From: Mesonia sp. K7
GTDB lineage: Bacteria; Bacteroidota; Bacteroidia; Flavobacteriales; Flavobacteriaceae
Length of the DNA stretch: 64,000 bases
Assembly (NCBI RefSeq): GCF_003233725.1
Contig: NZ_QKQV01000003.1
Coordinates: forward strand, 62,001 to 126,000
Direction: 5' to 3'
Of the stretch, positions 9,884 through 32,348 are shown one piece after another. The translations under genes and the position numbers were made by a program. Under the pieces are notes generated by a model that worked only from the letters and a program-made list of their open reading frames with translations, searched no databases and had not been told where the DNA came from. Within the stretch, counting starts at the first letter, position 1; each line of letters begins with the position of its first letter.

Positions 9884-10390
9884 ATGAATTTAATTAAAAA
9901 AATTACCCTAGTTTGTTTCTTAGCTATAGCTGCAATTGCATGTAGTAACGATGATGATAATGGATCATCAAAGAAAAATGAATTTACCTATGATGGTACA
10001 TCATATGAATTATCCTTGGGATATTTAGAAGATTTCGGAGAATTTTCAGAAGGAGTTTACAATTTTGACATCTATCTTCTTTCAAGCAATGCCGAGAATG
10101 GTATGTATTTTGAAATGTTTACAGATAACCAAAATAAATTAGAGGTTGGAACTTATACCCTAAGTAATAGTGGTAACGCAAATACATTTTCTAGTTCTTC
10201 TGAAATAGGTATAAATTTAAATAGCGAAAATGAAAAGTATTATGAGATAACTGAGGGAACGGTTGAAATATTATCAAACGATACTTATAAAATCGAGTTT
10301 GAGGGTACAGCAAACGGTAAAGCTTTCTCTGGATATTATAAAGGTTCTTTAAACAGTGGTGACATTCTGCCAAGACCTGCTAGAAAATAA
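9884..10390 (+). CDS. Small surface-type lipoprotein, unknown function
   Basis: 168 residues. Lipoprotein signal peptide (MNLIKKITLVCFLAIAAIAC) followed by SNDDDNGS, the acidic lipoprotein-export-signal pattern of Flavobacteriia, so it is probably exposed at the cell surface. The mature part is Ser/Gly/Asn-rich and beta-strand-like (TYDGTSYELSLGYLEDFGEF, GTVEILSNDTYKIEFEG, AFSGYYKGSL), like many Bacteroidota lipoproteins of about 150 residues. No named family is recognised. Transcription ends at the hairpin at 10415. Confidence 0.75.
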   Translation: MNLIKKITLVCFLAIAAIACSNDDDNGSSKKNEFTYDGTSYELSLGYLEDFGEFSEGVYNFDIYLLSSNAENGMYFEMFTDNQNKLEVGTYTLSNSGNANTFSSSSEIGINLNSENEKYYEITEGTVEILSNDTYKIEFEGTANGKAFSGYYKGSLNSGDILPRPARK

Positions 10391-10414: not shown

Positions 10415-10454
10415 AAAAATCCTCTTTTCATACCTTTGAAAAGAGGATTTTTTT
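10415..10454 (+). terminator. Terminator hairpin with a promoter element in its loop
   Basis: A 13-bp perfect stem (AAAATCCTCTTTT at 10415-10427 with AAAAGAGGATTTT at 10439-10451) and a T run up to the ATG at 10455. The 11-base loop holds TACCTTTG. The structure ends the lipoprotein gene and lies immediately upstream of the LD-carboxypeptidase gene. Confidence 0.75.
10430..10437 (+). promoter_or_regulatory. Putative -7 element of the LD-carboxypeptidase gene, inside a terminator loop
   Basis: TACCTTTG fits TAnnTTTG and ends 17 bases before the ATG at 10455. Initiation here would produce an RNA that carries only the right arm of the hairpin, so the terminator could not form on the new transcript. 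Confidence 0.5.
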
Positions 10455-11351
10455 ATGAAAACACCACCCTATTTACAAAAAGGAGATACCATAGCCATTG
10501 TTGCCACGGCTAGAAAAGTCAAAAAAGAAGAGTTGAAGCCTGCCATCAAACTGATGGAAAGTTGGGGTTTACAGCCTTTTATTGGTAAAAGTATCGGTTT
10601 GGAAAACCATCAATTTGCAGGAAGTGATTTAGATCGAGCAAATGATTTTCAAAAACAACTTGATGACCCGAAAATAAAAGCGATTTGGTGTGCTAAAGGC
10701 GGTTATGGAACGGTAAGAATGCTTGACCTACTAAATTTTTCCAATTTCCACAAACAACCTAAATGGATAGTTGGTTACAGTGATGTAACTGTTTTGCATA
10801 ATCATATTCACAATTTAGGATATTGCAGTCTGCACGCCCAAATGTGCTTAGGGGTCGAAACTAAAACAGAACTTAGTCGAGAAACGCTTCGCAAATCACT
10901 TTTTGATGAAAGTTTTGGTTATACATTCCCAAAATCAAAACTTAATAAAACTGGAAAGGCCCAAGGTGAAATTATCGGCGGAAACCTTTCAGTACTTTAT
11001 TCACTTTGCGGAAGTAAAACCAATTTAAAGACAGATGGAAAAATATTGTTTTTGGAAGATTTAGATGAATACCTCTATCATATCGACCGCATGATGCAAA
11101 ACCTAAAACGAAACGGAATGCTAGAAAATCTTGCTGGGTTAATTGTTGGGGGAATGTCTGAAATGAACGACAACAACATTCCTTTCGGGAAAACAGCCAA
11201 AGAAATTATCTCCGAAACCGTTGCCGAATATGATTTCCCTGTGGCTTTTAACTTTCCGGCAGGACATATCAAGAACAATCAAACCATTATATTGGGCAAA
11301 AAAATCACCTTAACGGTAGACAAAAACGAGAGCACTGTAAATTATAGCTGA
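10455..11351 (+). CDS. ldcA: LD-carboxypeptidase, S66 peptidase family (LdcA/MccF fold)
   Basis: 298 residues. S66 serine peptidases cut the L,D-bond of murein tetrapeptides during peptidoglycan recycling. Seen: the N-terminal PPYLQKGDTIAIVATARK, the nucleophile elbow with Ser in IVGYSDVTVLHNHI, then the C-terminal domain with Glu in ILFLEDLDEYLYHIDRMM and His in FPAGHIKNN. The protein has no signal peptide, in line with cytosolic recycling. Microcin-C-type MccF hydrolases share the fold, so the substrate is inferred. The stop overlaps the yraN start (TGATG). Confidence 0.9.
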   Translation: MKTPPYLQKGDTIAIVATARKVKKEELKPAIKLMESWGLQPFIGKSIGLENHQFAGSDLDRANDFQKQLDDPKIKAIWCAKGGYGTVRMLDLLNFSNFHKQPKWIVGYSDVTVLHNHIHNLGYCSLHAQMCLGVETKTELSRETLRKSLFDESFGYTFPKSKLNKTGKAQGEIIGGNLSVLYSLCGSKTNLKTDGKILFLEDLDEYLYHIDRMMQNLKRNGMLENLAGLIVGGMSEMNDNNIPFGKTAKEIISETVAEYDFPVAFNFPAGHIKNNQTIILGKKITLTVDKNESTVNYS

Positions 11352-11710
11352 TGGCACAACACAACGAACTCGGAAACAAAGGAGAACAATTGGCGGTTGA
11401 TTTTTTAATCGACAAAGGCTATCAAATTCTTGAGCGTAATTTTCGTTACCAAAAAGCTGAAATCGATATTATTGCTCAAAAAGCTGATATAATTTGTGCC
11501 GTCGAAGTAAAAACCAGAAGTACTTCTTCTTTTGGTAATCCGCAAGATTTTGTCAAACCCAAGCAAATACAACAATTGGTCAAAGCACTCGATTTTTATA
11601 TTATCAATAATGACTTAGATGTCGAAGTGCGTTTTGATATTATTGCGATTGTTCAAAACAAATCGGGCTCCAAAATAGAACATCTCGAAGACGCTTTTTT
11701 ACATTTCTAA
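11351..11710 (+). CDS. yraN: YraN family (UPF0102) endonuclease-like protein
   Basis: 119 residues, standard length. It has a restriction-endonuclease-like fold with the family motifs GNKGEQLAVDFL, ERNFRYQKAEIDIIAQ (the E-x-D-I-I acidic site) and CAVEVKTRSTSSFGNP (E-x-K). Function is poorly known; Holliday-junction-type nuclease activity has been suggested for the family. Its start overlaps the ldcA stop by one base. Its TAA shares two bases with the TAG of the convergent mfd gene. Confidence 0.92.
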   Translation: MAQHNELGNKGEQLAVDFLIDKGYQILERNFRYQKAEIDIIAQKADIICAVEVKTRSTSSFGNPQDFVKPKQIQQLVKALDFYIINNDLDVEVRFDIIAIVQNKSGSKIEHLEDAFLHF

Positions 11711-14700
11711 ACTTCAACTGTTTGTTTAGCAAAAGGCTGTAAAGCCTGTAATGCTTTACTTATCGAACTAATTTTATCAAATGTAATCAACAATCGTAAA
11801 CCATTACGGGTTTGCTTTTCTTTGATTTGGCATTTCGAACTGTTTTGTTGGAAGTATTGCAACACTTTCGTGAATTTTTTTGACTGGTAAAACTCCGAGT
11901 TTTGGTCAGCAATAAAATAACCGACCAGCTTATTCTTTTTCATTACCAATCGTTCTATTCCCATATCGGAAGCAATCCACTTGATGCGAACACTGTTCAA
12001 TAAGTCTTCCGCTTCGGTAGGGAGTTTACCAAAACGATCTACCAATTCACGCTCGTATTTCTGTAACTCATCTTCAGTAGTAATTTCGTTGAGCTTGGTA
12101 TATAAATTCAATCGCTCGGTAATGCTATTGATATAGTCGTCAGGAAAAAGAATCTCAAAGTCGGTATCGATTTGGGTTTCTTTTACAAAAACTTTTTCCG
12201 TCGTAGCGGAATCATTTTCGTACAACTCTTTAAACTCATTTTCTTTAAGCTCTTCAATTGCTTCATTCAGAATTTTTTGATAGGTTTCAAAGCCAATCTC
12301 ATTGATAAACCCACTTTGTTCACCTCCTAATAAATCCCCAGCCCCACGAATTTCAAGATCTTTCATCGCAATATTAAATCCGCTACCCAATTCTGAGAAT
12401 TGTTCAATCGCCTGGATTCTTTTTCTGGCATCTTCGGTCATCACCGAAACAGGTGGAGTAATAAAATAACAAAAGGCTTTTTTATTACTTCGTCCCACAC
12501 GACCTCGCATTTGGTGTAAATCAGACAAGCCAAAATTATTGGCATTATTAATAAAAATAGTATTGGCATTAGGCACATCTAAACCACTTTCGACAATGGT
12601 TGTACTCACCAAAACATCAAACTCACCATTCATAAAGCTCAACATTATCTTCTCGAGGTTTTTACCCTCCATTTGGCCGTGACCAATTCCTACTTTAGCA
12701 TCGGGAACTAATCGTTGGATAAGTCCTGCAACCTCTTTGATATTTTCGATACGGTTATGAATAAAAAATACTTGTCCGCCCCGCTGAATTTCATACGAAA
12801 TGGCATCGCGTATGGTCTCTTCCGAAAACTGAACCACATTGGTTTCGATAGGGTAACGATTGGGCGGTGGCGTAGTAATGGTCGATAAATCTCTGGCAGC
12901 CATCAAACTAAATTGTAGAGTTCGTGGGATTGGCGTTGCCGTAAGCGTAAGCGTATCTACGTTTTCTTTGATGGTTTTGAGTTTGTCTTTAACCGCTACT
13001 CCAAATTTTTGTTCTTCATCGATAATCAATAAGCCTAAATCTTTAAACACCACATTTTTATTGACCAGTTGATGTGTCCCTATGACGATATCTACTTTTC
13101 CAGCTTCGAGATTTTCTAATACCAATCGTTTTTCTTTAGCGGTTCTAAATCGGTTTAAATAATCTACGACTACAGGAAAATCTTTAAGTCTTTCGCTAAA
13201 GGTTTTAAAATGCTGAAAAGCCAAAATAGTTGTTGGCACTAAAACAGCTACTTGTTTGCCGTTGTCTACCGCCTTAAAAGCTGCACGCAGTGCAATTTCG
13301 GTTTTACCGAAACCAACATCTCCACAAATAAGTCTATCCATAGGTTGTTCGCTTTCCATATCCTTTTTTACTGCTTCGGTTGCAGTAACTTGATCTGGTG
13401 TGTCTTCATACATAAACGAAGCTTCGAGCTCGTGTTGCATAAACGTATCTGGACCAAAAGCGTGACCTTTTTCCAGCTTTCTTTTTGCATAAAGTTTGAT
13501 GAGGTTAAAAGCGATATTTTTAACTCTGGTTTTGGTTTTTTGTTTAAGGTTTTTCCAGGCGTTACTGCCTAATTTATAGATTTTAGGAGGCTTACCGTCT
13601 TTTCCGTTGTATTTGGTAATTTTATGTAACGAGTGAATGCTTAGGTATAAAATATCACGTTCGCCATAAATAAGTTTGATAGCTTCTTGTTGTTTGCCTT
13701 CGACATCTATTTTCTGGAGTCCGCCAAATTTACCAATACCGTGATCAATATGTGTTACATAATCGCCAATTTCGAGGTTAGTAAGCTCTTTTAAGGTAAT
13801 CGATTGTTTTTTGGCATACCCGTTTTTGAGATGAAATTTATGGTAGCGATCAAAAATCTGATGGTCGGTATAACCTGCTATTTTTAAATCGTCATCTATA
13901 AATCCTCTGTATAGAGAAGCAATTACAGTTTGATAATGTATCTCGTGCTCTTGATCATCGAAAATATCATGAAAACGTTGGGCTTGTTGCTCAGTAATAC
14001 AAAAAATATAATTGGTATATCCTTTTTCGTGGTTTTCAATAAGATTTTGTATCAACAAATCGAAATGCTTATTGAACGAAGGCTGCGGTTTGGTCTGAAA
14101 AATAATTTCTTTATCGGATAGAAAATGAGTTTGATTGCTTAGTTCTAGCAATTTGTATTTCTCTATATCTTTAAGAAACTGTAAAGCATTTACAAATAAG
14201 TCTTGAGGCGATTTTTGAGCGATTTCTCCGTCAAGTTTTTTAAAACTTTCTTCTGCTTTTTCGAAAAGTTTATCGAATTGTGCCTGATGTAATGCTAGGT
14301 TTTGTGCAAATACAACCGTTTGATCCGAAATGTAATTGAGAAACGTTTCTCGAATCTCTTCGAGATGTTTGTTTTCAAGGTTGGGAATAATCTGAACTTT
14401 TTTGTGCTTTTCGGTAGAAAGTTGGCTCTCGACATCAAAACTGCGTATACTTTCTATCTCGTCGCCAAAAAACTCAATCCGATAAGGCTCGTCATTACTG
14501 AAAGAGAAAACGTCTATAATTCCGCCTCTGAGCGAAAATTCGCCTGGTTCGGTCACAAAATCTACCCGTCTAAATTTGTACTCAAACAAAACCTCGTTGA
14601 CAAAATCTACCGAAAGTTCGTGACCGACTTCAATCTTTAAGGTGTTTTTGTTGAGCTCTTTTTTGGTCACTACCTTCTCAAAAAGAGCGTCAGGATAAGT

Positions 14701-32312: not shown

Positions 32313-32348
32313 TTAAAGGTGCAAATTTAAGAAAATTTGCACCTTTAA
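32313..32348 (-). terminator. Terminator of the lipocalin-like gene, overlapping the pheS promoter
   Basis: A 16-bp perfect stem: TTAAAGGTGCAAATTT (32313-32328) and AAATTTGCACCTTTAA (32333-32348), loop AAGA. A T-rich stretch follows on the minus strand. Confidence 0.8.
32322..32329 (-). promoter_or_regulatory. Putative -7 element of pheS within the terminator stem
   Basis: TAAATTTG on the minus strand, full match to TAnnTTTG. The ATG of pheS at 32299 is about 22 bases downstream. The element spans the loop and the start of the second arm of the hairpin. Confidence 0.45.

Follow-up and report, generated by a model that had tools for sequence, protein, structure and literature searches.

The element analyzed here lies between two codirectional genes of a marine, Mesonia-type bacterium, in a window of 64,000 nucleotides representing the whole stretch of DNA under study; positions refer to this window unless another locus is named. 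A small lipoprotein gene on the forward strand (9884–10390, 168 aa), featuring a lipobox of the SNDDD type and giving no Pfam match, is followed by ldcA, an LD-carboxypeptidase gene of the S66 family (forward strand, 10455–11351, 298 aa; Peptidase_S66/S66C, PF02016 and PF17676). The next open reading frame, assigned by its family match to YraN/UPF0102 (forward strand, 11351–11710), overlaps the ldcA stop codon and is probably cotranscribed with ldcA, while the transcript of the lipoprotein gene is presumed to stop at a hairpin located between that gene and ldcA. The ATG at 10455 aligns with the LdcA starts of 15 congeners and hence represents the homologous start codon; the LdcA proteins of these other Mesonia genomes, including Mesonia aquimarina and Mesonia sp. 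HuA40, are 61–74% identical to the one encoded here. In 8 of the 15, a homologue of the lipoprotein (E ≤ 1e-4) is encoded immediately 5' of ldcA.

The hairpin upstream of ldcA

The segment 10415–10454 (AAAAATCCTCTTTTCATACCTTTGAAAAGAGGATTTTTTT) is a perfect inverted repeat around TACCTT, followed by a T run and then by the ATG. The arms of the hairpin, AAAAATCCTCTTTTC on the 5' side (forward strand, 10415–10429) and GAAAAGAGGATTTTT on the 3' side (10438–10452), delineated both by the inverted repeat and by the RNA fold, form 15 perfect pairs, or 16 if the closing pair A10430–T10437 is counted. The stem is thus two to three pairs longer than the 13 bp given in an earlier, sequence-only reading of this DNA, which was correct in placing the ATG directly after the T run: the seven T (10448–10454, forward strand, five of them shared with the 3' arm) adjoin the start codon. 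The RNA of the segment 10400–10460 is predicted to fold at −20.6 kcal/mol (z −6.4), and none of 200 shuffled sequences was equally stable. The hairpin begins 24 nt 3' of the lipoprotein stop codon, and its stem ends 2 nt from the ldcA ATG. The window has no match in Rfam.

Terminator-like hairpins occur within 80 nt 5' of ldcA in 8 of the 15 congeners, being alike in form and different in sequence. Since the structure recurs there in other letters, the lipoprotein gene very probably has its intrinsic terminator in this hairpin; the earlier proposal of a terminator at this place is thereby well supported, together with the stem, the T run and the 24-nt spacing. In seven of the eight hairpin-bearing congeners, the hairpin ends 23–36 nt before the ldcA ATG. 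In the eighth, Mesonia aquimarina (L008:1459–1497), it ends 3 nt from the start, and its loop harbors TAATTTTA, a one-mismatch −7 box 22 nt before the ATG. The situation in the present genome is interpreted as an old lipoprotein terminator which seemingly now abuts the ldcA start codon.

The candidate −7 box and its possible use as a promoter

The hairpin also carries TACCTTTG (forward strand, 10431–10438), a match to the sigma-A −7 box TAHHTTTG situated 24 nt from the ATG and occupying the loop plus the first base or bases of the 3' arm. The earlier claim of a complete TAnnTTTG within the loop therefore holds for the presence of the box and fails for its boundary: as the stem comprises 15–16 pairs rather than 13, the box reaches into it with its final one or two bases. 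In Flavobacterium johnsoniae, the published account places the transcription start 4–5 nt past the −7 box and describes the −33 TTG as weak (PMC6847099). With the same spacing, transcription of ldcA would start at 10443–10444 (forward strand), leaving a leader of 11–12 nt.

By itself, TANNTTTG is common, 103 copies being present in the window vs. 95.8 expected, so the notion that TAnnTTTG is rare per se was rejected. It is the position of the box that is informative. In a sample of 581,345 bases (30 pieces of the same genome), 333 genes are preceded by 45 nt or more of non-coding sequence; TAHHTTTG was encountered 44 times 24–40 nt before their ATG vs. 3.1 times in shuffled sequences and twice for the reversed motif. 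The motif took 56 of 7412 positions at 22–42 nt and 13 of 15610 at 70–140 nt (ratio 9.1). Because its rate is about nine-fold higher 22–42 nt before starts, position by itself favors a real promoter by about 8:1, chance background accounting for about one in nine such boxes. In the same 333 upstream regions, TAHHTTTA appears 31 times 24–40 nt before starts vs. 8 times for TAHHTTTC and 11 for TAHHTTTT; given this frequency, A may replace the final G of the −7 box in this genome.

The surroundings of the box are less favorable. A TTG is absent 17–23 nt 5' of it, i.e., there is no −33 element, the nearest TTG being separated by a spacer of 29. This trinucleotide was not treated as required, since it is missing at N17–23 from 60 of the 71 well-placed TAHHTTTG boxes of the genome sample and since the −33 element was found weak in the F. 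johnsoniae work (PMC6847099). The leave-one-out score of the flanks, in which A/T-rich stretches at −18 and −28 are expected, ranks the ldcA box fourth lowest of 52 (likelihood ratio 0.24) because the stem places TCCTC where promoters are A/T-rich. Combined with the positional evidence, this leaves about 2:1 for a promoter. As for competing signals, no other full box is present in the 470 nt 5' of ldcA, and among the one-mismatch boxes there, TAAATTAG alone has a TTG at N17–23; it falls within the lipoprotein gene, at a distance of 320 nt.

Conservation at the locus gives the box no support. A search of the 120 nt next to the ldcA start revealed TAnnTTTG in none of the 15 congeners, so the box is not conserved and its conservation in the genus was rejected. 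The survey was extended to 124 LdcA loci (an alignment-based LdcA search of genome contigs gave 80 named loci), of which 6 duplicated upstream regions already included and 6 were omitted because of an unclear start or masked bases; of the 112 distinct upstream regions, 11 possess TAHHTTTG at 18–60 nt and 10 a terminator-like hairpin, both being combined in this genome only. The searches for relatives returned none closer than 74% LdcA identity. One-mismatch boxes are present in or after the hairpin in several congeners (after the T run in L004, L005 and L013), and these would be weak support for conservation at best. The same comparison bears on the idea that the palindrome is an operator at which a regulator covers the promoter, with no RNA signal involved. 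A −7 box enclosed by a perfect inverted repeat of 15 bp would suit such a site; however, the core sequence is found once in the 16 Mesonia genomes at up to 3 mismatches, and the congeners conserve structure, not sequence, which makes an operator highly improbable.

Taken together, the proposal of an ldcA promoter in the loop agrees with the box and its distance, which fit the genome-wide peak, and is weakened by the poor flanks, the missing TTG and the lack of retention in congeners. From the letters as they stand, the chance that TACCTTTG is used as the ldcA promoter is put at somewhat better than even.

In the reading considered the most probable, by a modest degree of confidence, the hairpin at 10415–10452 with its T run would end the lipoprotein transcript, and the loop DNA would carry the −7 box of ldcA. 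A polymerase arriving from upstream would copy both arms, the hairpin would form, and most transcripts would stop in the T run. A polymerase starting at 10443/10444 would copy only GAGGAUUUUUUU-AUG, i.e., a part of the 3' arm; hence neither hairpin nor termination would be expected from such a start, and the start codon would be more open. A read-through transcript, by contrast, would retain the hairpin 2 nt before the AUG, and ldcA would be poorly translated from it for this reason. According to the fold prediction, the unpaired probability of the region −12 to +3 is 0.41 for the transcript from 10443 vs. 0.11 for the read-through RNA. It is also conceivable that a polymerase retained after termination might restart on the same element. 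The dual use of these 40 bases, ending one transcript and starting the next, thus appears likely; drawn from one genome, it is on balance the better bet.

Two further explanations have to be weighed against this model. The hairpin could be solely a leaky terminator, with the match in the loop due to chance and with ldcA and yraN expressed by read-through or from a weak promoter elsewhere. The poor flanks, the missing −33 element, the lack of conservation and the share of background among boxes at this distance (about 1 in 9) all agree with this, as do the partial terminations described for F. psychrophilum (PMC9723704). Yet read-through RNA would hide the ldcA start region in a stem of 15–16 bp, with the low predicted accessibility given above, and the 470 nt before ldcA offer no other full box, the one-mismatch TAAATTAG being the sole candidate with a properly spaced TTG. 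A leaky terminator is therefore regarded as possible, though clearly the less probable account. Alternatively, the palindrome may chiefly block ldcA translation from upstream transcripts by hiding the start, in the manner of T4 gene e, with little termination. Such a mechanism is already known from T4 (PMC3014915, PMC2988022), and it would suit both a stem ending 2 nt before the AUG and the lower predicted accessibility of the start in read-through RNA. Still, the hairpin has the classical form of a terminator with seven T, and in seven of the eight hairpin-bearing congeners it lies away from the start codon, at the distances noted above; a role confined mainly to translation is accordingly deemed improbable.

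Hairpin–box overlaps elsewhere and the pheS locus

Overall, 99 terminator-like hairpins were found in the 581-kb sample; a codirectional start follows within 90 nt in 29 cases and, in 7, at a distance of no more than 18 nt. Three of these seven (those of ldcA, pheS and recX) have TAHHTTTG 24–34 nt before the start. Two of the 99 hairpins, those of ldcA and recX, carry TAHHTTTG with 4 nt or more in the loop vs. 0.27 expected (P 0.012); the ldcA hairpin, however, prompted the test, and the count becomes 1 of 98 without it. When boxes in hairpins were compared with matched positions and the T run was not required, no enrichment was detected either in the own genome (2/58 vs. 14/940, P 0.24) or in 800 kb of congeners (2/96 vs. 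24/1196). The excess of hairpins over well-placed boxes was likewise not significant in the own genome (4/23 vs. 4/73, P 0.09) and was absent from the congeners (1/25 vs. 4/111). Promoters in terminator loops as a general device of the genome are thus unsupported, there being no significant excess here or in the congeners. Since well-placed boxes fall in hairpins no more often than matched positions do, the overlap looks like a rare consequence of crowding and not like a device in wide use.

At the recX locus, the terminator is flanked by what are presumably an RNase G-like gene and recX. The loop of its hairpin (L046:5066–5114, i.e., G000:C28:25066–25114) contains TATTTTTG 34 nt before the recX ATG. 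In several congeners, the recX box sits after the T run, where this genome also has TATTTTTA. Because the conserved signal in these congeners follows the T run, the loop box (G000:C28:25114) is probably incidental and was set aside as a promoter. Another candidate, with TATTTTTG at the end of the stem and T run (L112), was rejected; in that region, TACCTTTG lies closer to the gene.

The pheS locus offers a better-supported case. A 16-bp hairpin (minus strand, 32313–32348; TTAAAGGTGCAAATTT-TCTT-AAATTTGCACCTTTAA) separates an extra lipoprotein gene from pheS, and the pheS −7 box TAAATTTG (minus strand, 32322–32329) lies in its 3' arm. This box is located 30 nt before the pheS ATG, is recognized by its conservation in Mesonia genomes and reads TAAATTTGC in this genome. 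The box and the C following it are kept in all 16 Mesonia genomes, as TAAHTTTGC in 15 and as TACCTTTGC in one. At the same time, the tight hairpin is found in 1 of the 16, namely here only, and so is the lipoprotein gene at that place. In a few other genomes (e.g., L094, L097, L100), looser pairings with long loops run through the pheS box without a T run. With its surroundings, the pheS hairpin is predicted to fold at −21.2 kcal/mol (z −3.8). It is followed by a poor T run, TGTTTTTAG, which makes termination less certain than at ldcA. Read most simply, an additional gene would have entered before pheS, and a new 5' arm, complementary to the existing promoter, would have completed the hairpin. 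The general idea is strengthened by pheS and seems firmer than it would be from ldcA alone. A comparable arrangement was observed in another genome (L119, minus strand, near the ATG at 12477), where an 11-bp hairpin has TACCTTTG as its 3' arm, 35 nt upstream of a start codon.

Annotation normally treats terminators and promoters as distinct elements that follow one another. Should a single inverted repeat be able to serve as both, programs predicting terminators and programs predicting promoters would each overlook one half, and closely spaced codirectional genes with an intervening terminator could be independent units. What pheS suggests is that the terminator of a new gene can be folded out of the promoter of its neighbor, which loses no promoter thereby. 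A broader proposal, that terminators in this lineage have repeatedly been built onto existing promoters, with pheS as the clear example and ldcA as the second, is a speculative one and rather unlikely to hold. If true, the promoter would become the 3' portion of a hairpin through an inverted duplicate of its −7 region or through a stem closing around it; the inserted gene would gain a terminator and the old downstream gene would keep its start signal, read-through being silenced as well. RNA polymerase set free at an element of this type might then start again on those very bases.

Relation to known systems

Compared with the sigma-A promoters of Bacteroidetes (TTTG or TAnnTTTG; TAHHTTTG in F. 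johnsoniae), the ldcA box is full, neither free position being a G, and its distance from the ATG likewise gives a leader of 11–12 nt. Unlike these promoters as usually found, it lacks a properly spaced −33 TTG, has G+C in the flanks and is located in a hairpin loop. The hairpin resembles intrinsic terminators in its stem of 15–16 bp, its T run and its position 24 nt past a stop codon; it differs from ordinary ones in that the T run touches the next start codon and the loop contains a promoter box. Among the titles and abstract openings surveyed, a range lying outside most subscription papers, no report of an overlapping terminator and promoter of this type was recognized.

The nearest parallels come from phage T4. 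For gene e and the T4 homing endonucleases, two papers state that initiation at a promoter within the hairpin region yields transcripts that lack the 5' part and are translated, whereas longer ones are not (PMC3014915, PMC2988022). In T4 gene e, soc, 49, I-TevI and segB, as at ldcA, the promoter lies within the hairpin-encoding DNA, and transcripts from there lack the 5' arm; as predicted for ldcA, the read-through RNA hides the start. The T4 hairpins, however, hide a ribosome site for the sake of timing, whereas the ldcA hairpin has the form of a terminator of the upstream gene and is associated with no phage timing. A second parallel is polymerase recycling: E. coli RNA polymerase can stay on the DNA after intrinsic termination and restart at nearby promoters, distance mattering most (PMC7957599). 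These results were obtained in vitro with the E. coli enzyme, whereas at ldcA the terminator and the promoter would share the same bases. Read in this light, the ldcA element, if it functions as predicted, belongs to a known type of arrangement and is an unusually compact example of it.
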